Shown here: positions 31,717 to 49,333 of the stretch, in pieces
How positions within the stretch are numbered: the first letter of the stretch is position 1
Layout: each line of letters begins with the position of its first letter
Assembly: GCA_024123915.1 (NCBI GenBank)
Contig: CP099650.1
Location: forward strand, 5,456,001 to 5,520,000
Source: Oxalobacteraceae bacterium OTU3CAMAD1
Lineage (GTDB): Bacteria > Pseudomonadota > Gammaproteobacteria > Burkholderiales > Burkholderiaceae_D
Direction of reading: 5' to 3'
Length of the DNA: 64,000 bases
The notes under the pieces: model-generated
What the model was told of the DNA's origin: nothing
Database searches by the model: none
The model's input: the letters and a program-made list of their open reading frames with translations, nothing else
Made by a program: the position numbers and the translations under genes

Positions 31717-33018
31717 TCACCGCCGAATCACTTCCCCGCCCTTCATCACGAACGACACCTTGGTCAACTCCGCCGCGTTCTCCGCCGGATCGCCCTTGAC
31801 CGCGATAATGTCGGCGAATTTGCCCACGCTGATCGACCCCACCCTGTCCTTCCACCCCAACAAATCCGCCGCGTTGATGGTGGCCGCCTGAATCGCCTGC
31901 ATCGACGTCATGCCGTACTTGATCATGTACGCAAACTGCTTGGCGTTGTCGCCATGCGGATAAACGCCCGAATCGCTGCCGAACGCCATCTTCGCCCCGC
32001 CGGTGAACGCCTTGCGGAAGTTATCGCGCTGCAGCTGGCCGATCACCTTCTCCTTGGCGATCGACTCCGGCAGCATGCCGGCCTTCTCGCCCTCCTGCAA
32101 AATAAAATCGTCGTTGTAAATATCCATCACCAGATAGGTGCCCTTCTCGCGCGCCAGCTTGATGCCCTCTTCGTCGATCAAACTCGAATGCTCGACCGAA
32201 TCGACGCCTGCCAGAATCGCATCGCGGATGCTGCTGGCGCCGTGCGCGTGCGCGGCCACCTTGCGGCCAAGCTTGTGCGCCTCACCGACGATGGCCTGCA
32301 TCTCCTCCAAGGTGTACTGCTGCGCGCCCGGCTCGTTCCCCTTGGAGAGCACACCGCCCGAGGCGCAAATCTTGATCACGTCGGCGCCGTACTTGGCCAT
32401 CTCGCGCACCTTGGCGCGCGCCTCCCACGGGCCGTCCGCCACGCCGCGTCCGACAACGTTCTTATCCGCCGGCAGCAAGTTCTCGTCGCAATGGCCGCCC
32501 TGGATGCCGATGGCGTAACCGGCGGTGCTCATGCGCGGCCCGATGAAGTCCCCCTCGTTGATCGCGTCGCGCAGCGCGACATCGCCGAAGCCGCCCGCGC
32601 CCACGTTGCGCACGCTGGTGAAGCCCGCCTCCAGCGTCTTGCGCGCCGAGCGCACGCCATACAGGGCAGCGCGCGTGTCGGACACACCCAGCGCGTTGTA
32701 GCCGCCCAGATAAGCGTCGCTGGTCAAATGGGTATGCATGTCGATCAAGCCTGGTAGCACAGTCTGCGACGACAGGTCGATCATCTGCGCGCCGGCCGGC
32801 ACCTTGGCCGAAGCACTCGGACCGACCGAGGTGATACGCTCGCCGGTGATGACGATGGTCTGGTCCTTGAGCACCGTGCCGGCCACCACGTCGACCAGTT
32901 TACCGGCGCGGATGACGACCACTTTGGCTTCCGCCTTGGCGTCGGCGGCGAAAGACGGCAGGGCCGCGCCCAGGGCGCAGAGGACGGCGGCGGTGACCGA
33001 AAGATGCTTGAACTTCAT
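31717..33018 (-). CDS. Exported metal-dependent amidohydrolase
   Basis: A 433-residue amidohydrolase-superfamily protein. The start at 33018 gives a Sec signal (KHLSVTAAVLCALGAALPSFA). The metal-binding HTH motif is in VLPGLIDMHTHLTSD, further ligands are the Lys in DVIKICASGG, His residues in KVAAHAHGA and SVEHSSLI and the Asp in FGSDSGVYPHGDN. This pattern fits imidazolonepropionase-like or Xaa-Pro/Xaa-Arg dipeptidase amidohydrolases of the periplasm. A C-terminal beta domain (GSISVGKFADIIAVKGDP) completes the fold. The substrate is unknown. Confidence 0.9.
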   Translation of the reverse strand: MKFKHLSVTAAVLCALGAALPSFAADAKAEAKVVVIRAGKLVDVVAGTVLKDQTIVITGERITSVGPSASAKVPAGAQMIDLSSQTVLPGLIDMHTHLTSDAYLGGYNALGVSDTRAALYGVRSARKTLEAGFTSVRNVGAGGFGDVALRDAINEGDFIGPRMSTAGYAIGIQGGHCDENLLPADKNVVGRGVADGPWEARAKVREMAKYGADVIKICASGGVLSKGNEPGAQQYTLEEMQAIVGEAHKLGRKVAAHAHGASSIRDAILAGVDSVEHSSLIDEEGIKLAREKGTYLVMDIYNDDFILQEGEKAGMLPESIAKEKVIGQLQRDNFRKAFTGGAKMAFGSDSGVYPHGDNAKQFAYMIKYGMTSMQAIQAATINAADLLGWKDRVGSISVGKFADIIAVKGDPAENAAELTKVSFVMKGGEVIRR

Positions 33019-33077
33019 GGCGTGCGCCCTTTTCAAAAAAGAGAAAAGAATAGCAGAGCAACCATGAAAACGCGTAG

Positions 33078-34277
33078 CTACTTTTGCCAGGCGCAGGTGC
33101 GCAGGCCGACGAACATGTCGTCGCGCTCGGGCATGTAGAAGTTGCGGTACTTGGCCGAGACCATGCGCGGCTGCGTGGCGAACGAAGCGCCGCGCAGCGC
33201 CTGGTGGGTGGAAAACCACGGCTGCGAATATTCGCGGTAGCGGTCCGGCGCGAAATCAGGATACGGCTCGAACGGCGTCGAGGTCCACTCCCACAGCTGC
33301 CCCCAGCGGAATGCTGGATGGCCCGACAGGGCCGCGTACTCCCACTCCGCCTCGGTCGGCAGGCGCCGGCCGGCCCAGGCGCAATAGGCCTGCGCCTCGT
33401 ACAGGGTCAGATGGCGCACCGGCTCCGCCCCGCCGAGCGTGGTCAACTCGCCGAAGCGCATCGTGCGCCACACGCCGCCGTCGCGATGCCAATGGCGCGG
33501 CGCCGAGCGCTCCTGGCGCATCAGCCATTCGGCGCCGGCGTTGCTCCAGAACTGGCGGTTGTCGTAACCGCCATCGGCGACGAAATCGGCATACTGGGTG
33601 TTGGTCACCAGGCTGCTGTCGATGGTGAACGGCGCCACCCGCACGGCATGCGCGGCGCGCTCGTTGTCGAACACGAAGCCGCCGCCGGCGCTGCCCATCT
33701 CGATGGTCCCGCCGGGGAAGCCGATCTCCGACGGCGCGAACTGCGCCTGCCCCGGCGCGGCGGCGGTCTGCGGCGCCGCCAACCCGAGCGTCTGCAAGGT
33801 GTAGAGCAGCGCCTCGCCGTGCATGTCCTCGTGCGCCAGCGCCAGCCGGTAGGGATACAGCGCCTCGTCGGTGTTGGGCTCGCGCGACAGTTTATCGAGC
33901 ACCCGGTCCAGCACCTCGTGGCAGTAGGTCTTCAGCGCGCCGGTGCCGGGAAGGTCCAAGGTCCAGCGGCTGCGGTGCGGCACCAGCGCGGAATCGAACC
34001 AGTCGTCGCCACGGCTCAGCAGGCAGTTGCCGTTGCCGTCGGCCGGATGGCTCGATGTCGCCTCGCGCAGGATGAACCACTCGGCGAACCAGGCGATGTG
34101 GCCCAGCTCCCACAGCGGCGGATTGAGGATGCGCAGTTGCGGCACACGGGCCGGCACGTCCATGCCGGCGGCGGCGAAGCAATCGAACAGCAGCAGCGTA
34201 TAATCCCGCGCATGCCGCAGCGACTGCGCCAATTGCTGTGGACTGGCGTTCCGGAACGAGGATGGGCTGGAATTCAT
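33078..34277 (-). CDS. senA: Selenoneine synthase SenA (EgtB-like)
   Basis: A 399-residue non-haem iron enzyme related to the ergothioneine synthase EgtB. An N-terminal DinB-like bundle supplies the iron ligands, His60 (WELGHIAWF) and the HEDMHGE motif (His149, His153, Glu155). The C-terminal formylglycine-generating-enzyme-like domain (about 185-397) has RHLTLYEAQAYCAWAGRRL and PTEAEWEYA. In the known pathway SenA joins a selenosugar to hercynine in an oxidative C-Se bond-forming step. I call it SenA rather than EgtB because it is divergent from a TIGR04348-type glycosyltransferase and selD, and because a separate EgtB with EgtD lies at 43522-45769. The start at 34277 leaves only 34 bp to the senB start. 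Confidence 0.85.
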   Translation of the reverse strand: MNSSPSSFRNASPQQLAQSLRHARDYTLLLFDCFAAAGMDVPARVPQLRILNPPLWELGHIAWFAEWFILREATSSHPADGNGNCLLSRGDDWFDSALVPHRSRWTLDLPGTGALKTYCHEVLDRVLDKLSREPNTDEALYPYRLALAHEDMHGEALLYTLQTLGLAAPQTAAAPGQAQFAPSEIGFPGGTIEMGSAGGGFVFDNERAAHAVRVAPFTIDSSLVTNTQYADFVADGGYDNRQFWSNAGAEWLMRQERSAPRHWHRDGGVWRTMRFGELTTLGGAEPVRHLTLYEAQAYCAWAGRRLPTEAEWEYAALSGHPAFRWGQLWEWTSTPFEPYPDFAPDRYREYSQPWFSTHQALRGASFATQPRMVSAKYRNFYMPERDDMFVGLRTCAWQK

Positions 34278-34311
34278 GGGGCGATTGTAACGACTTTTAA
34301 GCAAAACACCA

Positions 34312-35316
34312 GTGACACGACAGCATATCTGGATCGTCAGCCCGGCGTCGGCCCGCGCCAACAACGGCAACTGGCAAAGCGCCAGCCGCTGGGCGCGTTT
34401 CCTGCGCACGCGCTACCGCGTCACGGTCAGTCTGCACTGGCCCGACGCCGATGCGCCCTCGCCGGCCGCGCCTCCCGACCTGCTGATAGCTTTGCACGCG
34501 CGCCGCTCGGCGGCGTCGCTGGACGCGTGGACGCAAGCGTGGCCCGACCGCCCCTCCATCCTGCTGTTGACCGGCACCGACCTGTATCGCGACATCGACA
34601 CCGACGCCAGCGCGCGGCGCTCGCTGGACCAGACCACCGCGCTGGTGCTGTTGCAAGCGGCAGGCCTGCAAGTGCTGCCGGCGCCGTTGCACGCCAAGGC
34701 CCACGTCATCTACCAGTCCGCCGCCACCCTGCGGCCGTCGCCCCCGACAACCAGGCGGCATGTGGACATCTGCATGATCGGCCACCTGCGCGCCGAGAAA
34801 GACCCGTACACCTTCATGCGCGCCGCCACAGAGGTGACGTCGCCGACCGCGCGCCTGATCCACATCGGCGGCGCGCTGGAGCCGGCGCTGGCCACCGCCG
34901 CCCAGGTCACCGCCGGCAAGGAGCCGCGCTACCACTGGCTGGGCGCCATGCCGCACGGCGCCACGCGCCAGCGCCTCAAGCGCAGCCACGCGATGGCGCT
35001 GACGTCGCACATAGAGGGCGGCGCCAACGTCATCATCGAAGCGGTGAGCGCCGGCGTGCCGGTGCTGGCGAGCGACATCAACGGCAATCGCGGCATGCTG
35101 GGCGACGACTACGCCGGCTACTTCCCGCCCGGCGACGCCGCCGCGCTGGCGCGCCTGATCGACCGCACCATCGAAGACCCGCCCTTCCACGCGCTGCTGC
35201 GCGCCCAGTGCGACGCCCGCGCTCCGCTGTTCGCGCCGGCCGCCGAACGGGCGGCCCTGCTCGAGTTAGTGGATAATCTGCTCAATCTTCACCGAATAAG
35301 CCCAACCAAGGAATGA
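34312..35316 (+). CDS. senB: Selenosugar synthase SenB (TIGR04348-type glycosyltransferase)
   Basis: A 334-residue GT-B-fold glycosyltransferase starting with GTG. It opens with HIWIVSPASARANNGNWQSASRWARFL and has the C-terminal donor-site block HIEGGANVIIEAVSAGVPVLASDINGNRG (quoted in parts: IEGGANVIIEA, VPVLASDI). In the described pathway this enzyme uses selenophosphate and UDP-GlcNAc (or a similar UDP-sugar) to make a 1-seleno-sugar. It overlaps functionally and physically with senC: the senC ATG follows its stop by four bases and shares its ribosome site. No clear ribosome site precedes its own GTG, so it may be leaderless or start slightly downstream. Confidence 0.85.
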   Translation: MTRQHIWIVSPASARANNGNWQSASRWARFLRTRYRVTVSLHWPDADAPSPAAPPDLLIALHARRSAASLDAWTQAWPDRPSILLLTGTDLYRDIDTDASARRSLDQTTALVLLQAAGLQVLPAPLHAKAHVIYQSAATLRPSPPTTRRHVDICMIGHLRAEKDPYTFMRAATEVTSPTARLIHIGGALEPALATAAQVTAGKEPRYHWLGAMPHGATRQRLKRSHAMALTSHIEGGANVIIEAVSAGVPVLASDINGNRGMLGDDYAGYFPPGDAAALARLIDRTIEDPPFHALLRAQCDARAPLFAPAAERAALLELVDNLLNLHRISPTKE

Positions 35317-35320
35317 ACAA

Positions 35321-36367
35321 ATGAGCAACGACGCTATCAAACTGACCTCCTTCTCCCACGGCGGCGGCTGCGGCTGCAAAATCGCGCCCGGCGTGCTGTC
35401 GGAGATCCTGAAGAATTCGACCGGCTTCCCGGTGCCGAAGGAACTGATGGTCGGCATCGAGACGGCCGACGACGCCGCCGTCTACAAGCTCAATGACGAA
35501 CAGGCGCTGATCGCCACCACCGACTTCTTCATGCCCATCGTCGACGACCCGTTCGACTTCGGCCGCATCGCCGCCACCAACGCCATCTCCGACGTCTACG
35601 CCATGGGCGGCACGCCGATCATGGCCCTGGCGCTGGTGGGCATGCCGATCAACAAACTGCCGATCGAAACCATCGGCCAGATCATCAAGGGCGGCGAATC
35701 GATTTGCGCCGAAGCGGGTATTCCGATCGCCGGCGGCCACACCATCGATTCGGTCGAGCCGATCTACGGCCTGGTGGTGCTGGGCCTCGTGCACCCGTCC
35801 AAAGTCAAACGCAACGCCGACGCCAAGGCCGGCGACGTGCTGGTGCTGGGCAAACCGCTGGGCGTGGGCGTGCTGTCGGCCGCGCTGAAGAAGGACAAGC
35901 TGGACGCCGACGGCTACAAGGCCATGATCGCCAACACCACCAAGCTGAATAAGCCCGGCAAGGCGCTATCCGAAATGACCGGCGCGCATGCGCTGACCGA
36001 CGTCACCGGTTTCGGTTTGCTGGGCCACCTGCTGGAGCTGGCGCGCGGCGCCAAGCTGGAAGCGCATCTGGAGATGGCGAAGATTCCGCTGCTGCCGGGT
36101 GTGGAGCAGCTGGCGCACGACGGCTACTTCACCGGCGCCTCGGGACGCAACTGGGACGCGTACGGCAAGGACGTGACCCTGGGCGCGGGCGTCTCGCAGG
36201 CGCAGCACATGTTGCTGACCGACCCGCAAACCTCCGGCGGCCTGCTGGTCTCATGCGACGCCGGCAGCGTCGAGGAAGTCCTGGCACTATTCCGCCGCGA
36301 AGGCTTCGGCGAGGCCGCCGTCATCGGCCGCATGGCCGAAGGCGAAGCGCGCGTGCGCGTCGAATAA
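35321..36367 (+). CDS. senC: Selenide, water dikinase / selenophosphate synthetase (SenC)
   Basis: A 348-residue SelD-family enzyme that converts selenide and ATP to selenophosphate. The glycine-rich N-terminal loop FSHGGGCGCK has Cys17, Cys19 and Lys20 in the same positions as E. coli SelD, with Cys rather than selenocysteine at 17. Other hallmarks are TTDFFMPIVDDPFDFGRIAATNA (as TTDFF and DPFDFGRI) and TDVTGFGLLGHL. It is the second gene of the senB-senC operon and should supply SenB. In genomes where tRNA selenouridine (SelU) or selenocysteine is made, the same protein may serve both; no selA, selB or selU is in the window. The symbol selD would also be correct. Confidence 0.9.
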   Translation: MSNDAIKLTSFSHGGGCGCKIAPGVLSEILKNSTGFPVPKELMVGIETADDAAVYKLNDEQALIATTDFFMPIVDDPFDFGRIAATNAISDVYAMGGTPIMALALVGMPINKLPIETIGQIIKGGESICAEAGIPIAGGHTIDSVEPIYGLVVLGLVHPSKVKRNADAKAGDVLVLGKPLGVGVLSAALKKDKLDADGYKAMIANTTKLNKPGKALSEMTGAHALTDVTGFGLLGHLLELARGAKLEAHLEMAKIPLLPGVEQLAHDGYFTGASGRNWDAYGKDVTLGAGVSQAQHMLLTDPQTSGGLLVSCDAGSVEEVLALFRREGFGEAAVIGRMAEGEARVRVE

Positions 36368-36595
36368 CGACGTCCATAACGGCCGGGGCGCCCGTCCCCG
36401 GTCGCAGGTTTCACCATCCCGATTCCCGCCCCAAAGTCATTGTCGATATTTTCGAACATAGAACCGTAATTTTTCCGCTTTTACTTTTCCCTCACGTCGC
36501 GGATACTTCATTCCAGCAGCGAGCAACGCGAAACAAAAGCCGCGAAAAACGCGAACCACTCTATCGAAATTATTCACTATACTTAGGAGCTTACT

Positions 36596-37249
36596 ATGCC
36601 AACCGCCATCGCCAAACCAGGCAACACCCTGCTGAACCCAACCAACCACACCCTGATCATGATCGATCACCAGTCGCAGATGTCGTTCGCCACCAAGTCG
36701 ATCGACCCGGTCCAGCTGCGCAACAACGTCGCGCTGGTCGCCAAGGCCGCCAAAGGCTTCGCCGTCCCGACCATCCTGACCACCGTCGCCGAAAAATCGT
36801 TCTCAGGCCCGATCTTCGACGAAATCAAATCGGTTTTCCCCGACGAAGTGGCGATCGACCGCACCACCATGAACACCTGGGAAGATCCACGCATCGCCGA
36901 CCGCGTCAACGCCATCGGCAAGGACAAGATCGTGCTGGCCGGCCTGTGGACGTCGGTGTGCATCGTCGGCCCCGCCCTCTCGGCGCTCGACCAGGGCTTT
37001 GAAGTTTATGTCATCACCGACGCCAGCGGCGACGTCTCCGACGAAGCGCACGAACGCGCCGTCGAACGCATGGTGCAACTGGGCGCCCGTCCAATGACCT
37101 CGCTGCAGTACCTGCTCGAACTGCAGCGCGACTGGGCGCGCGGCGAGACCTACAACGAGACCGTGGCCACCTCGATCGCGCACGGCGGCGGCTATGGCCT
37201 GGGTCTGATCTACGCCAAAACCATGTTCAACGCCGGCGAAGGCCACTAA
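36596..37249 (+). CDS. Isochorismatase-family cysteine hydrolase, YcaC-like
   Basis: A 217-residue cysteine hydrolase with the isochorismatase fold. The catalytic triad residues are in MIDHQSQM (Asp), the central lysine region TTVAEKSFSGP, and the nucleophile in WTSVCIVGPALSAL (Cys near residue 122). The HGGGYGLGLIYAK tail is typical of YcaC-like proteins of unknown substrate. A TAGGAG ribosome site precedes the ATG, and TATACT at 36578-36583 could be its -10 box. The 228 bp between senC and this gene include GC-rich inverted sequence near 36385-36400 that may end senC transcription. Confidence 0.88.
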   Translation: MPTAIAKPGNTLLNPTNHTLIMIDHQSQMSFATKSIDPVQLRNNVALVAKAAKGFAVPTILTTVAEKSFSGPIFDEIKSVFPDEVAIDRTTMNTWEDPRIADRVNAIGKDKIVLAGLWTSVCIVGPALSALDQGFEVYVITDASGDVSDEAHERAVERMVQLGARPMTSLQYLLELQRDWARGETYNETVATSIAHGGGYGLGLIYAKTMFNAGEGH

Positions 37250-43521: not shown

Positions 43522-44805
43522 TCAGGCTTGCCGCGCCAGCCGGATGCCGGTGAACTGCCAGCGGGCGCCGGCCGGGAAGAAGTTGCGGTAGCTGGCGCGC
43601 GCGTGCCCGGCGGGCGTGGCGCATGAGGAACCACGCAGCACATACTGATTCAACATGAATTTGCCGTTGTATTCGCCCAGCGCGCCCGGCGCGGTCCGAT
43701 AGCCCGGATAAGGCGAGTAGCTGCTGCTGGTCCACTGCCAGCAATGGCCGAACATCTGCAGCAGCCCAGGATCGGTGACGGCGGCAGCGCCGGCGCCGGC
43801 GGGATGCAGCTCGCCGGTGTCGATTGCCGCCCGCGCGGCGGCGACCTCCCACTCCGCCTCGGTGGGCAGGCGGGCGCCGGCCCAATGGGCATAGGCGTCC
43901 GCCTCGAACAGCGAAAGATGCGTCACCGGCAGGTTCGGGTCCAACGCCTGCGCGCCGCGCAGCGTGAATTCCTGCCAGTCGCCGTTATCGTCCTGTCGCC
44001 AATAGATCGGGCACTTCAAATTCTGGCTGCGCACCCAATCCCAGCCCTCGGCCAACCACAGCGCCGCATTGAAGTAGCCGCCGGCGGCGATGAACGCCTG
44101 GTACTCCCCATTGGTCACGAGGCGTGACGCCAGCTGGAACGGCGCCACATACTGCTTGTGGCGGGGCAGCTCGTTGTCGAAGCAAAAGCCGTCGCCGTCA
44201 TAGCCTATCTCTGTCAGGCCGCCGTCGAAGCCCACCCACGACAATTGCGACGCCACGGGAGCCGCAGGCATGGCCGCCTCCATATAAGCGGGCAGCAAGG
44301 CGCTTTGCGCCAGCAGGTGTTTGACGTCGGTGAGCATCAGTTCCTGGTGCTGCTGCTCGTGCTCCAGCCCCAGCGTGATCAGCGTCTCGAGCTGTTCGCG
44401 TTGCGGCGCATCGAGTTCGGATGCCACGCCGGCCAACAAGCGGGCCACGCGCGCGTCGACATCGGCGCGGTAGGCACGCACCTGCGCCATCGCCGGCCGC
44501 GTCAACAGCCCGCGCTGGGCGCGCGGATGCTTTTCGCCGACGCCGTTGTAATAGGAGTTGAACAGCACCCGGAACGCCGGATGGAAAGGCTGGAACCCGG
44601 CCTCCATGCGCTCGAGGATGAAGGTCTCGAAGAACCAGGTGGTGTGCGCCAGGTGCCACTTGATCGGACTGGCGTCCGGCATCGACTGCGCGCCGCAATC
44701 CTCGTCGGTCAGTGGCTCGGCCAGCAGCAGCGAGCGCTGACGCACGGTGTAAAAGCGGGCGCTGAGTTGGGCGAAAAGTGGCTGCTGCGGCAAACGCATG
44801 TCCAT
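43522..44805 (-). CDS. egtB: Ergothioneine biosynthesis protein EgtB (hercynylcysteine sulfoxide synthase)
   Basis: A 427-residue non-haem iron sulfoxide synthase. The DinB-like N-terminal domain has the iron ligands in WHLAHTTWFFE (His51/His54) and HEQQHQE (His149, His153, Glu155); the C-terminal FGE-like domain has VTHLSLFEADAYAHWAGARL, PTEAEWEVA and GHCWQWTSSSYSPYPGY. It couples hercynine with cysteine or gamma-glutamylcysteine using O2. The start at 44805 follows an AGGAAGAG site. It lies 16 bp after egtD on the same strand, forming an egtD-egtB operon. No egtA, egtC or egtE is nearby, so direct use of cysteine and a general PLP lyase are likely (inference). Confidence 0.93.
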   Translation of the reverse strand: MDMRLPQQPLFAQLSARFYTVRQRSLLLAEPLTDEDCGAQSMPDASPIKWHLAHTTWFFETFILERMEAGFQPFHPAFRVLFNSYYNGVGEKHPRAQRGLLTRPAMAQVRAYRADVDARVARLLAGVASELDAPQREQLETLITLGLEHEQQHQELMLTDVKHLLAQSALLPAYMEAAMPAAPVASQLSWVGFDGGLTEIGYDGDGFCFDNELPRHKQYVAPFQLASRLVTNGEYQAFIAAGGYFNAALWLAEGWDWVRSQNLKCPIYWRQDDNGDWQEFTLRGAQALDPNLPVTHLSLFEADAYAHWAGARLPTEAEWEVAAARAAIDTGELHPAGAGAAAVTDPGLLQMFGHCWQWTSSSYSPYPGYRTAPGALGEYNGKFMLNQYVLRGSSCATPAGHARASYRNFFPAGARWQFTGIRLARQA

Positions 44806-44821: not shown

Positions 44822-45769
44822 TCAGTCGCGGATAACGCGGGCGTGAATGACGGCGAACCAGCCCGCCGGATCGGTCCAGACACGGGTGGTGGCAAACCCG
44901 GACTGCTCCAGCAGGCCGACGAAGGACTGCCGCGTATATTTATAACTGTCCTCGGTGTGTATGCGCTCACCCTGCGCGAAGCGGCGCTCGCCGCCCTGCC
45001 AGCGCACAGTCAACGCGCTGCGCGCCTCCAGGTGCATTTCGATGCGGCTTTCCTCCTGGTTGAAGAAAGCGATGTGCCGCCACTGGCGCACGTCGAAGTC
45101 GGCGCCGATCAAATGATTGACGTGCCGCAGCATGTTCAGGTTGAAGGCCGCCGTCACGCCGATCGCGTCGTCATACGCCGCATCGAGCACCGCGCTGTCC
45201 TTGATCAGGTCCACGCCGATCAACAGGCCGCCGTCGTCGCCGGCGTTGGCGTGCAGGCCGCGCAGGAAAACCTTGGCCTGTTCGGGCGAAAAGTTACCGA
45301 TCGACGAGCCGGGATAGAAAAACAGGCGGCGCCGATGGCGCACACTGTCCGGAAGCGCGAAGCCGCTGGAAAAATCGAGTCCCAGCGGCGTCATTTCAAT
45401 TTGCGGGAAGCGCTGTTGCAGGCGCGAGACGGAATCGAGCAGGAAATCGCGCGAGATATCGACCGGCACGTACTGCGCCGGTTGCAGCAGCGGGAACAGG
45501 CCGGCGGCCTTGGCGCAATTGCCGGCGCCCAGATCGATCAGCGAGGTGCCGGTGCCGATGTCGCGCGCCATATCCGCGCCGTGCGCGGCGAAGATGCCGG
45601 CCTCGGTGCGGGTGGGATAGTACTCCGGCAGTTCGCAAATCGCCTCGAACAGCTTGGAGCCCAGGCCGTCGTACAGATATTTGGGCGAAGTATTCGCGTC
45701 GGAAGCCAGCAGGCCGGCGCTGATTTCGGCGATGACCGCATCGCTGCCGTGAGGGCGGGACATTTGCAT
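44822..45769 (-). CDS. egtD: L-histidine N(alpha)-methyltransferase EgtD
   Basis: A 315-residue SAM-dependent enzyme that trimethylates histidine to hercynine, the precursor of ergothioneine and selenoneine. It begins with SPKYLYDGLGSKLFEAICELPEYYPTRTE (here in part), the typical EgtD opening. The SAM site is LIDLGAGNCAKA, with VPVDIS next. FFPGSSIGN (here FFYPGSSIGNF) and the C-terminal EDSYKYTRQSF complete the family pattern. It is the first gene of egtD-egtB and divergent from the ABC importer across 190 bp. Because no second egtD is seen, it probably feeds both EgtB and SenA. Confidence 0.94.
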   Translation of the reverse strand: MQMSRPHGSDAVIAEISAGLLASDANTSPKYLYDGLGSKLFEAICELPEYYPTRTEAGIFAAHGADMARDIGTGTSLIDLGAGNCAKAAGLFPLLQPAQYVPVDISRDFLLDSVSRLQQRFPQIEMTPLGLDFSSGFALPDSVRHRRRLFFYPGSSIGNFSPEQAKVFLRGLHANAGDDGGLLIGVDLIKDSAVLDAAYDDAIGVTAAFNLNMLRHVNHLIGADFDVRQWRHIAFFNQEESRIEMHLEARSALTVRWQGGERRFAQGERIHTEDSYKYTRQSFVGLLEQSGFATTRVWTDPAGWFAVIHARVIRD

Positions 45770-45959: not shown

Positions 45960-46835
45960 ATGAAATTTTCCCCGATGAACACGCTCAAATCCCTGCTGGC
46001 CGCCGGCCTGCTGCTGGCCGCCGCCCATTCCCAGGCGCAATCCGCCGACCGCGTGCTGCGCGTGTCCGCCATCCCGGACGAGGCGCCGACGGAATTGCAG
46101 CGCAAGTTCAAGCCGCTGGGCGAGTACCTGGAGAAGAAGACCGGCATGAAGGTCGAATTCACTCCGGTCACCGATTACGCGGCGTCGGTCGAAGCGCTGA
46201 TCAATAAAAAAGTGGACATGGTCTGGTTTGGCGGCTTCACCTTCGTGCAGGCCAAGGACCGCAGCAAGAACCAGGTCACGCCGCTGGTGCAGCGCGCCGA
46301 AGACGAAAAATTCCGCTCCGTGTTCATCACCACCAACAAGGACATCAACAAGCTGGAAGACCTGAAAGGCCGCACCCTGAGCTTCGGTTCCGAGTCGTCG
46401 ACCTCCGGCCACCTGATGCCGCGCTCCTTCCTGCTGGCCGCTAAAATCGATCCGGACAGCGATCTGAAACGCATCGCCTTCTCCGGTGCGCATGACGCCA
46501 CCGTCGCCGCTGTCGCCGGCGGCAAGGTCGATGCCGGCGCGTTGAATATCTCGGTCTGGGAAAAACTGGTCGCCGAGAAGAAGGTCGATCCTGCCGTGGT
46601 GCGCGTGTTCTACACCACCCCTGGCTACTACGACTACAACTGGACCGTGCGCACCGACATGAGCGCGGATCTGAAGAAAAAGATCACCGACGCCTTCCTG
46701 GCCCTCGATGCGAAGAACCCGCAGGACAAGATCATCATGGATCTGCAACGCGCCTCGAAGTTCGTTCCGACCAAGGCCGAGAACTACACCGCCATCGAAG
46801 CGGCCGCCCAGAACGCCGGCCTGCTGAAGAAGTAA
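45960..46835 (+). CDS. PhnD-type ABC substrate-binding protein, putative selenate/selenium oxyanion binder
   Basis: A 291-residue periplasmic binding protein. The start at 45960 gives a Sec signal (NTLKSLLAAGLLLAAAHSQAQS). The fold matches the phosphate/phosphonate-binding PhnD family (RVSAIPDEAPTELQRKFKPLGEYLEKKTGM, in part; VDMVWFGGFTFVQA; SESSTSGHLMPRSF; SGAHDATVAAVAGGKVDAGAL). From memory, a close subfamily is labelled in databases as putative selenate ABC transporter binding protein; I cannot check that here. Position next to egtD and about 10 kb from senABC supports a selenium role, but phosphonate or another oxyanion is still possible. Confidence 0.8.
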   Translation: MKFSPMNTLKSLLAAGLLLAAAHSQAQSADRVLRVSAIPDEAPTELQRKFKPLGEYLEKKTGMKVEFTPVTDYAASVEALINKKVDMVWFGGFTFVQAKDRSKNQVTPLVQRAEDEKFRSVFITTNKDINKLEDLKGRTLSFGSESSTSGHLMPRSFLLAAKIDPDSDLKRIAFSGAHDATVAAVAGGKVDAGALNISVWEKLVAEKKVDPAVVRVFYTTPGYYDYNWTVRTDMSADLKKKITDAFLALDAKNPQDKIIMDLQRASKFVPTKAENYTAIEAAAQNAGLLKK

Positions 46836-46851: not shown

Positions 46852-47685
46852 ATGCCGACCTACCAATTGCGGAACCTGACGGTGCGCCACCCGGGCACAT
46901 CGGCATCGGCTTCCGCTGCGGCTCCGGCCCTGCAAGCGATCTCGTTGACGGTACAACAGGGCGAGCAACTGGCGCTGATCGGCCCCTCCGGCGCCGGCAA
47001 GACCACGTTGCTGGCGACCCTGGCATGCGCCCAGCGGCCGGCCGAAGGCGGATTCAAAGCCTTCGGCGCCGATCCCTGGGCGCTGGGCGAAGCCGCGCGC
47101 CATCGCCTGCGCGCGCAATTGTTCCTGGCGCCGCAAACACCGCCGCTGCCGCCACGCCAACGCGTGGTGACGGCGGTGCTGGCCGCGCGCCTGCCGCAGT
47201 GGAGCGTGTGGCGCGCCCTCGTTTCACTCTTTAAGCCCGCCGACCCGCAAGCCGCGTGGCAGGCGCTGTCGCGCTTCAACCTGGGCGACAAACTGTATTC
47301 GCGCGTCGACCGCCTCTCCGGCGGCGAGCGCCAACGCTGCGGCCTGGCGCGCCTGCTGCTGTCGCCGGCCAAGGCCCTGCTGGTGGACGAGCCGCTGTCC
47401 GCGCTCGATCCCGCGCTGTCCGAGCTGACCCTGGCCACCTTGCGCGAGGAAGCCGCCTCGCGCGGCGCCACCCTGATTTGCAGCCTGCACCAGGTCGACC
47501 TGGCGCTGCGCCACTTCCCGCGCATCGTCGCGCTGCGCAACGGCCGCGTCGAATTCGACCTGCCGCGCGCGCAGGTCACGCAACAGATGATCGACGAGCT
47601 GTATCAAGGCGAACAAACCGTCAGCGCGCCGCAGCCCGACCACGAGGCGCTGGCCGTCAAACTGGGCATCGGCGCTTGTCTGTAA
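46852..47685 (+). CDS. PhnC-type ABC transporter ATP-binding protein
   Basis: A 277-residue ATPase of the importer. Walker A is GPSGAGKT (residues 44-51), the signature LSGGERQRCGLAR, and Walker B ALLVDEPLSALDP. It follows the binding-protein gene by 16 bp, and its stop overlaps the ATG of the first permease (TAATG), so the genes are translated together. Best seen as the energy unit of the putative selenium oxyanion importer. Confidence 0.92.
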   Translation: MPTYQLRNLTVRHPGTSASASAAAPALQAISLTVQQGEQLALIGPSGAGKTTLLATLACAQRPAEGGFKAFGADPWALGEAARHRLRAQLFLAPQTPPLPPRQRVVTAVLAARLPQWSVWRALVSLFKPADPQAAWQALSRFNLGDKLYSRVDRLSGGERQRCGLARLLLSPAKALLVDEPLSALDPALSELTLATLREEAASRGATLICSLHQVDLALRHFPRIVALRNGRVEFDLPRAQVTQQMIDELYQGEQTVSAPQPDHEALAVKLGIGACL

Positions 47686-48530
47686 TGGCTGTTTTTCCAC
47701 ACAATTTTCCACCCCATCTGCACGCCGATCCGGCCTGGCGCGGCCGCTTGATCGCCTGCGCGGCCGCCGTCATCGTCCTGTGGCCGATGCTGGTCGTCAG
47801 CGAATTCAAGCCGTGGATACTGTGGGACTGGCAAAGCCTGTCGGCCACCGGGCGCTTTCTGTCGGACTTCCTGGTGCCCGCGCACGGCGCCGAATTCCTG
47901 CAAATGCTGCTGCGCGAAACCTGGCAGACCGTTGCCATCGCCACCGCCGGGCTGACCCTGGCGCTGCTGGGGGCCGTCCCCGCCACCTTGATCATCAACG
48001 AAAAGCTGTCGATATCCGCGCTGGGCACGGGGCGCATGCGCCTTCCGGCCAGGCTGCTGCGCCAGGGCGTGCGCTGGCTGCTGGTGCTGCTGCGCAGCGT
48101 GCCGGAACTGGTATGGGCGCTGCTGTTCGTGCGCATCATCGGCCTCGGTCCCACCGCCGGCGTGCTGGCCATCGCCCTCACCTACTGCGGCATGCTGGGC
48201 AAGGTCTACGCCGAGATCCTGGAATCTTCCGACTCCCACGCCACCGACACCCTGATGGCCAACGGCAGCGGCAGGCTGGGCGCGCTGCTGTACGGCGCGC
48301 TGCCGGAATCGGCGTCGGAACTGATGTCGTACACGGTCTACCGCTGGGAATGCGCGATACGCGGCTCGGTGGTGATGGGCTTTGTCGGCGCCGGCGGCCT
48401 CGGTCAGCGCATGGATGAATCGATGAAAATGCTGGCCGGCGCCGAGGTGTCCTCGATGTTGCTGGTGTTCGTGGCGCTGGTCGCGCTGGCGGACCTGTTC
48501 TCCAAGATCCTGCGGGGGCGGCTCGGATGA
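47685..48530 (+). CDS. PhnE-type ABC permease 1
   Basis: A 281-residue inner-membrane permease with about six helices. The ATG at 47685 overlaps the ATPase stop. The EAA-type cytoplasmic loop that contacts the ATPase is around ALPESASELMSYTVYRWE, followed by GFVGAGGLGQRMDESMKML. It ends with a 4-bp overlap into the second permease. Two separate permeases suggest a heterodimeric channel. Confidence 0.92.
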   Translation: MAVFPHNFPPHLHADPAWRGRLIACAAAVIVLWPMLVVSEFKPWILWDWQSLSATGRFLSDFLVPAHGAEFLQMLLRETWQTVAIATAGLTLALLGAVPATLIINEKLSISALGTGRMRLPARLLRQGVRWLLVLLRSVPELVWALLFVRIIGLGPTAGVLAIALTYCGMLGKVYAEILESSDSHATDTLMANGSGRLGALLYGALPESASELMSYTVYRWECAIRGSVVMGFVGAGGLGQRMDESMKMLAGAEVSSMLLVFVALVALADLFSKILRGRLG

Positions 48531-49333
48531 ACGACGTCAAACCGCATACCGGCATGCCCCAACCGCCGGCCCGGGACTGGACCGTGCTGGCGCTGATGGC
48601 GCTGGTGGCGGTGCTGATCGTGGCCAGCTTCGCCGCGCTGCCGTTGAAATGGCGCGAGTTCTTCACCATCGACGCGGTCAACAGCGTGCTCGAACTGCTG
48701 GCCGGCTTCGCGCCGCCGGACATCTCGCCGCGCTTCCTGACCAAGACCGCGTGGGCCACGATAGAAACGATGTCGATGTCGGCGCTCGGCACCTTGCTGG
48801 CGGTGGTCGCCGGGCTGGCGCTGTCGCTGCCGGCGTCGGGCCGCTTCGGCCGGGCGCCGCGCGCGGCGGTGCGCGCCGCGCTCAATGTGCTGCGCTCGAT
48901 CCCGGAACTGGTGTGGGCCTCGATCCTGCTGATCGCCGCCGGCCTGGGTCCGTTCGCCGGCACGCTGGCGCTGGCCGCGCACACCGCCGGCGTGCTGGGG
49001 CGCCTGTTCGCCGACGCGCTGGAAAACGCCGCGCCGCTGCCGGAGCAAAGCCTGCGCACCAACGGCGCCTCCGCCACCGCCGCCTTCTTCTACGCGACCT
49101 TGCCGCAAACGCTGCCGCAGATGCTGTCCTATACCTTGTACCGCTGGGAGAACAATATCCGCGCCGCCGCCATCCTCGGCGTGGTGGGCGCCGGCGGTTT
49201 GGGGCAGATGCTCAAATATCACCTGTCGCTGTTCCAGATGCAGAAGGCCGCCACCGTCATCATCGCCATGCTGCTGCTGGTCGCGCTGGTGGACGCCATC
49301 AGCTTCGCGATGCGCCGCGCGCTCACGCGCTGA
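48527..49333 (+). CDS. PhnE-type ABC permease 2
   Basis: A 268-residue permease homologous to the previous one, with the loop TLPQTLPQMLSYTLYRWENN and GVVGAGGLGQMLKYHL. The start overlaps the preceding stop by four bases (ATGA). With permease 1 it would form the membrane channel of the importer. The next gene starts 42 bp later and encodes a different kind of ATPase. Confidence 0.92.
   Translation: MNDVKPHTGMPQPPARDWTVLALMALVAVLIVASFAALPLKWREFFTIDAVNSVLELLAGFAPPDISPRFLTKTAWATIETMSMSALGTLLAVVAGLALSLPASGRFGRAPRAAVRAALNVLRSIPELVWASILLIAAGLGPFAGTLALAAHTAGVLGRLFADALENAAPLPEQSLRTNGASATAAFFYATLPQTLPQMLSYTLYRWENNIRAAAILGVVGAGGLGQMLKYHLSLFQMQKAATVIIAMLLLVALVDAISFAMRRALTR

Follow-up and report, generated by a model that had tools for sequence, protein, structure and literature searches.

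A complete predicted selenoneine locus, with ergothioneine genes and a putative importer nearby, in an Oxalobacteraceae bacterium

The senABC selenoneine pathway of Variovorax paradoxus was reportedly first described by Kayrouz et al. in 2022. For V. paradoxus DSM 30034 the pathway is treated in PMC9814287, PMC10702425, PMC10891094 and PMC10903977. PMC11929427 describes SenB as reducing selenate, which contradicts the structural papers and was not used. Here, a locus at positions 33078-36367 of a 64-kb stretch of DNA (the window; contig CP099650.1, positions 5,456,001 to 5,520,000) from Oxalobacteraceae bacterium OTU3CAMAD1 was compared with these systems. The locus had been predicted to hold a complete senABC set, and this interpretation is supported by profile, tree, active-site and gene-order tests, so that the bacterium very probably encodes a complete selenoneine pathway. 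The core of the locus is as follows:

33078..34277, reverse strand: senA, selenoneine synthase (3-His iron enzyme), 399 aa; identified by NF041186, solved SenA chains, the tree and an intact triad
34278..34311, no strand: 34 bp separating the start codons of the divergent genes senA and senB, read from the sequence
34312..35316, forward strand: senB, selenosugar synthase, GTG start, 334 aa; identified by TIGR04348 and solved SenB 8jjn/8fbx
35321..36367, forward strand: senC = selD, selenophosphate synthetase; identified by TIGR00476 and the genome search

All three reading frames are open at these coordinates. The divergence of senA from senB-senC described in the original prediction is seen in the start codons, an ATG at 34277 on the reverse strand for senA and a GTG at 34312 on the forward strand for senB, and senC follows senB after 4 bp. 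No sigma-70-like promoter site was found in 33000-36700, terminator-like sites in that range were as frequent as in shuffled sequences (3 compared to 3.1), and no RNA elements were found in the window at Rfam gathering thresholds.

In an NCBIfam profile search, the SenA product scored 529.9 bits with NF041186 (cut-off 420, E 4.4e-159), and its best relatives in the structural database were the solved SenA chains 8ryz/8k5i (3.3e-95). A phylogeny among SenA and EgtB sequences had been proposed as a check on the original prediction, and a quick tree was made of 69 proteins, comprising 37 SenAs of SenB-bearing loci (the window SenA and a typed PDB chain among them), 14 rows of variant SenA-like proteins and 18 EgtBs; linked SenA and EgtB rows were thinned evenly to roughly half of those available. 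All SenA rows split from all EgtB rows (SH-aLRT 100), which places the protein starting at 33078 with SenA and not with EgtB, and it groups with the SenAs of Rugamonas aquatica and Duganella sp. 1224 (support 98). His60, His149, His153 and Glu155, which had been listed as intact iron ligands, are all present in the product, and the three histidines align with histidines of EgtB 4x8b. In the EgtB family, however, three histidines bind the iron, and Glu155, though found without exception in the 73 SenAs whose locus or genome has SenB, was not counted as a ligand.

The SenB product scored 408.2 bits with TIGR04348 (cut-off 300, E 1.9e-122), in agreement with the glycosyltransferase type assigned before, and matched solved SenB structures 8jjn (5.4e-81) and 8fbx (7.4e-81). 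Alignment by eye showed that it keeps N20, H58, R61, T83, T85, R155, K158, E231 and E239 of the V. paradoxus enzyme, the roles of whose studied residues are given in PMC10891094; the catalytic lysine and the sugar-donor function are represented by the equivalents of K158 and E231. The SelD/SenC product scored 437.4 bits with TIGR00476 (cut-off 125, E 6.4e-164) and holds both catalytic residues, Cys17 and Lys20, as had been stated. A profile search of the whole genome (7.48 Mb, one contig) showed senC to be the only SelD over the cut-off, and genes for MnmH and SelA are present elsewhere in the genome. SenC is therefore a common rather than a dedicated selenophosphate source, shared with selenouridine formation (MnmH) and probably with that of selenocysteine (SelA). 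A tRNA scan found no tRNA in the window or in the 4.4-kb selA locus, the genome not having been searched for selB, tRNA-Sec or selenoproteins, and it is thus SelA that points to selenocysteine use.

The earlier reading overlooked egtD-egtB and a TIGR04553 importer, all of which lie in the same window:

43522..44805, reverse strand: egtB, ergothioneine-type sulfoxide synthase; TIGR03440 564.4 bits, cut-off 360; start by eye
44822..45769, reverse strand: egtD, hercynine synthase, upstream of egtB; TIGR03438 385.6 bits, cut-off 290.9
45960..46835, forward strand: substrate-binding protein for a putative selenate ABC importer (PhnD-type), gene divergent from egtD; TIGR04553 405.1 bits, cut-off 250; start by eye
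46852..47685, forward strand: importer ATPase, PhnC-like; TIGR02315 184.8 bits, below the cut-off of 266.1
47685..48530, forward strand: importer permease, PhnE-like; TIGR01097 182.3 bits, below the cut-off of 216.7; start by eye
48527..49333, forward strand: probable second importer permease; position and sequence by eye only

The egtD gene is the single EgtD match in the genome and supplies the hercynine source that the pathway needs, and the window EgtB scored 389.7 bits with the SenA model, below the cut-off of that model. The binding protein exceeds the cut-off of TIGR04553, a family whose name is itself only putative, and has the PhnC-like and PhnE-like genes behind it, the ATPase gene starting 16 bp after its end; among solved structures it is related to binding proteins for phosphonate and phosphite and to those of the ArrX/AioX type. 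A literature search found no paper on the accession TIGR04553 and none combining selenate, ABC transporter, selD and phosphonate, while one paper uses the TIGR04553 annotation only and reads the transporter as export. On the other side of the locus, an amidohydrolase gene (31717-33024, reverse strand; Xaa-Pro dipeptidase model NF051886, 604.8 bits, over the cut-off) adjoins senA. Such a gene is found next to senA also in several Duganella/Rugamonas loci, with no selenium link seen.

The set thus matches the senABC pathway, as had been proposed, with EgtD for hercynine in the same window. The chemical steps have been reported for homologues in the literature, and we infer them for the window proteins. 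SenC would form selenophosphate from selenide and ATP, from which SenB would make a 1-seleno-sugar with a UDP-sugar, and the iron enzyme SenA would couple this selenosugar oxidatively with hercynine from the nearby EgtD; breakdown of the selenoxide and subsequent reduction would yield selenoneine. The nearby EgtB would turn the same hercynine into ergothioneine, and we infer that the TIGR04553 ABC importer probably brings in selenium. It is conceivable, though we hold this tentatively, that importer, egtD, egtB and senA/senBC make up a selenium module that runs from import to product in one place. If so, TIGR04553 would be the specific prokaryotic selenium importer, which according to PMC13188914 has not been identified, and selenoneine would be a main sink of selenium here. 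A search of the selenoneine literature, with the original 2022 report and the ovoselenol report outside its reach, found no paper on this sen-egt-importer neighbourhood or on SenA without the iron triad.

The distribution of these genes was surveyed in 97 genomes of the same family, with distances taken between profile matches; because of relatedness among the genomes and the draft state of many of them, the P values overstate the evidence. SenB was found over the curated cut-off in 42 of the 97, and the suggestion that this is a rare use of selenium therefore does not hold within the family. An egtD match (1e-50) was present in all 42 senB genomes (in G086 partial and under the cut-off) compared to 37 of the 55 others (P 9e-6). 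All 42 also had a selD match, with one match in 41 (that of G088 cut by a contig end), G021 having one whole selD and a fragment at a contig end, and all had an MnmH match (1e-40), which in G088, judged by eye, consists of fragments under the cut-off. A whole selD was found on a separate contig from senB in G004, G021, G064 and G077. With senB and egtD on one contig (30 genomes), the two were at most 20 kb apart in 24 and at most 60 kb apart in 29, G033 being the exception (1.9 Mb). TIGR04553 co-occurs with selD in 48 of 50 genomes, the exceptions (G009 and G087) being 80% and 68% complete. Where importer and egtD shared a contig, they were no more than 0.5 kb apart in all 23 senB genomes, which represent 11 genera, compared to 5 of 9 genomes without senB. 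Where importer and selD shared a contig, at most 0.4 kb separated them in 3 of the 24 senB genomes compared to 11 of 17 without senB. In the same-genus genome G040 (L155), egtD-egtB, selD and the TIGR04553 importer lie within approximately 7 kb, with senA and senB absent, and this island looks like a natural loss of the selenoneine pathway. In G004, a single 3-kb block (L150) holds senB, egtD and a divergent SenA-like gene, and selD lies on a separate contig.

Gene order was also assessed in named loci, namely the top 80 among 562 confirmed SenB loci. Divergent senA and downstream senC were seen in 61 of the 80 (38 of 48 in Oxalobacteraceae, 23 of 32 in others or unassigned). Ten Massilia/Telluria loci have no senA beside senB, in two cases (L178, L195) because the contig ends there; in L235 senA is 2.3 kb from senB, and in L237 no senA is shown. 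Two surveyed genomes in which senA is not next to senB (G056, G079) have it elsewhere, with the triad intact. In the Massilia-type loci L153, L154, L171 and L183-L186, senB-senC lie near egtB-egtD and the importer, and senA is not beside senB. The fetched DNA of the 80 loci contained egtD in 28 and the importer in 24; with both flanks of approximately 10 kb, the Oxalobacteraceae loci had egtD in 21 and the importer in 18 of 41. Outside this family egtD is found beside senA (L189, L209, L228, L231), beyond senC (L236, L238) or upstream of senB (L237), as if the linkage arose more than once.

Ten SenA-like proteins without a SenB partner (L140-L149) were also found, nine of them in genomes without SenB over the cut-off and one as a second copy in G058. 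None has a complete iron triad: the histidine at 153 is replaced by Cys, Arg or Gln in all ten, that at 60 by Gln or Asn in four and that at 149 by Tyr in three. All 74 other proteins keep the triad, namely the 73 SenAs of SenB-bearing loci or genomes (window included, some being near-copies) and the divergent G004 protein, which was counted as SenB-linked. Retention of the triad with SenB and its loss without SenB fit SenA and SenB acting together, and the pattern supports the pathway in the window, where both genes are intact. A dN/dS of 0.12-0.14 among the three copies L142, L143 and L144 indicates slow evolution and that the triad-less proteins are maintained, perhaps for a role in binding or regulation. 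A single origin of the triad-less group was rejected (p-AU 0.005), a test weakened by the group having been picked after viewing the tree. Nine of the ten exceed the NF041186 cut-off, and a search with the L143 protein gave 23 sequences without the triad among the 120 matches listed (of 1239), several of these, mostly from Janthinobacterium, being named 'selenoneine synthase SenA' by NCBI. Judged by their residues, some database 'SenA' entries are thus unlikely to be selenoneine synthases, and the annotation needs an iron-ligand check. Example genes are L143:6419-7615 and L142:6164-7360. Neighbours common to the triad-less genes come mostly from one group (pstB/phoU/phoB-like in L142-L144 and L148), and no selenium partner was seen among them except SelD, beside the gene in L141 and near it in L149. 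In L141 (4477-6856), selD and the triad-less gene adjoin divergently with no senB between them, and this genome (93% complete) has no egtD match.

The reading of the locus as sulfur chemistry, with 33078-34277 as a second EgtB and the SenB-like gene making a thiosugar, is highly improbable. SenA does belong to the EgtB fold family and reaches 296.1 bits with the EgtB model TIGR03440, and SenB takes thiophosphate weakly, discriminated 10-20-fold according to PMC10702425. However, the EgtB score is below the cut-off of 360 while the SenA cut-off is exceeded, the protein lies in the SenA clade, and a true EgtB (564 bits) is encoded 9 kb from senA in the window; a second EgtB was rejected on these grounds. 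Moreover, selD directly follows senB in the window, and the two are no more than 0.2 kb apart in all 38 genomes that have both on the same contig. It is also very unlikely that the locus is decaying or silent, with the genes there and no selenoneine made. Such a fate would have parallels in relatives that lost parts, such as G040 with its selD, egtBD and importer left, and in the ten SenA-like proteins without the triad, but in the window all frames are open, the active sites are intact, and senA has a dN/dS of 0.21 and 0.20 compared to two relatives (L163 and L161, respectively). The open frames, the E-values and, for senA, these ratios likewise led to the rejection of a chance match or a pseudogene.

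Several observations weigh against reading the locus as a complete selenoneine pathway with its importer. By eye, the window SenB differs from that of V. paradoxus at T23 (Ser), V157 (Glu) and H235 (Asn), and the 97 genomes, all from one family, do not count as independent. The TIGR04553 gene was present in 26 of the 42 genomes with senB, leaving 16 without it, and in 24 of the 55 without senB (P 0.1); importer presence alone is thus not clearly tied to sen. Outside Oxalobacteraceae, loci with flanks of approximately 10 kb had egtD in 3 of 18 and the importer in 3 of 18, so that close linkage is not general beyond the family. That sen, egt and importer genes lie close together might, in an explanation to which we give some but limited credence, reflect inherited neighbour order, for instance around leuA, rather than a functional module: leuA sits between the sen and egt genes in the window and in many Oxalobacteraceae loci, the genomes are related, and the distances range between 50 bp and 56 kb. 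Against this, the linkage was found in 14 of 21 senB genera, whereas of the 10 senB-less genomes with selD and egtD on one contig, only 3 had the two at most 60 kb apart (P 5e-5). In these three (G040, G065, G076) the importer, too, lies next to egtD, and they resemble islands that lack senAB. The differing gene order outside Oxalobacteraceae also argues for more than inheritance of neighbours.

With respect to selenium and sulfur use, a single SelD in this bacterium would have to serve at least two and probably three uses of selenophosphate, and a single EgtD would have to supply hercynine for both ergothioneine and selenoneine. Since SelD and EgtD are shared and most of the genes lie in one window, the split between sulfur and selenium antioxidants is testable by single deletions, and the importer beside egtD is a concrete candidate selenium transporter.

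Compared to the known systems, the locus has the same three enzymes as V. paradoxus senABC, with the studied residues, and hercynine is needed in both. It differs in lying in another taxon and in that the sole SelD over the cut-off doubles as SenC; the presence of egtD, egtB and the TIGR04553 importer within 10 kb of senC is noted here for the window. The ergothioneine enzymes EgtB and EgtD are both encoded here, and SenA, which shares the fold family of EgtB, is set apart from it by cut-off and clade. The related enzyme OvsA (ovoselenol; PDB 8ux5), named selenoxide synthase in the PDB, is more distant from the window SenA (215.8 bits) than the solved SenA is (322.9 bits). The locus is therefore another example of the described pathway, in a Duganella/Rugamonas-type bacterium; its core is not new, being recognised by curated models in another betaproteobacterium, and it is the setting that adds value.

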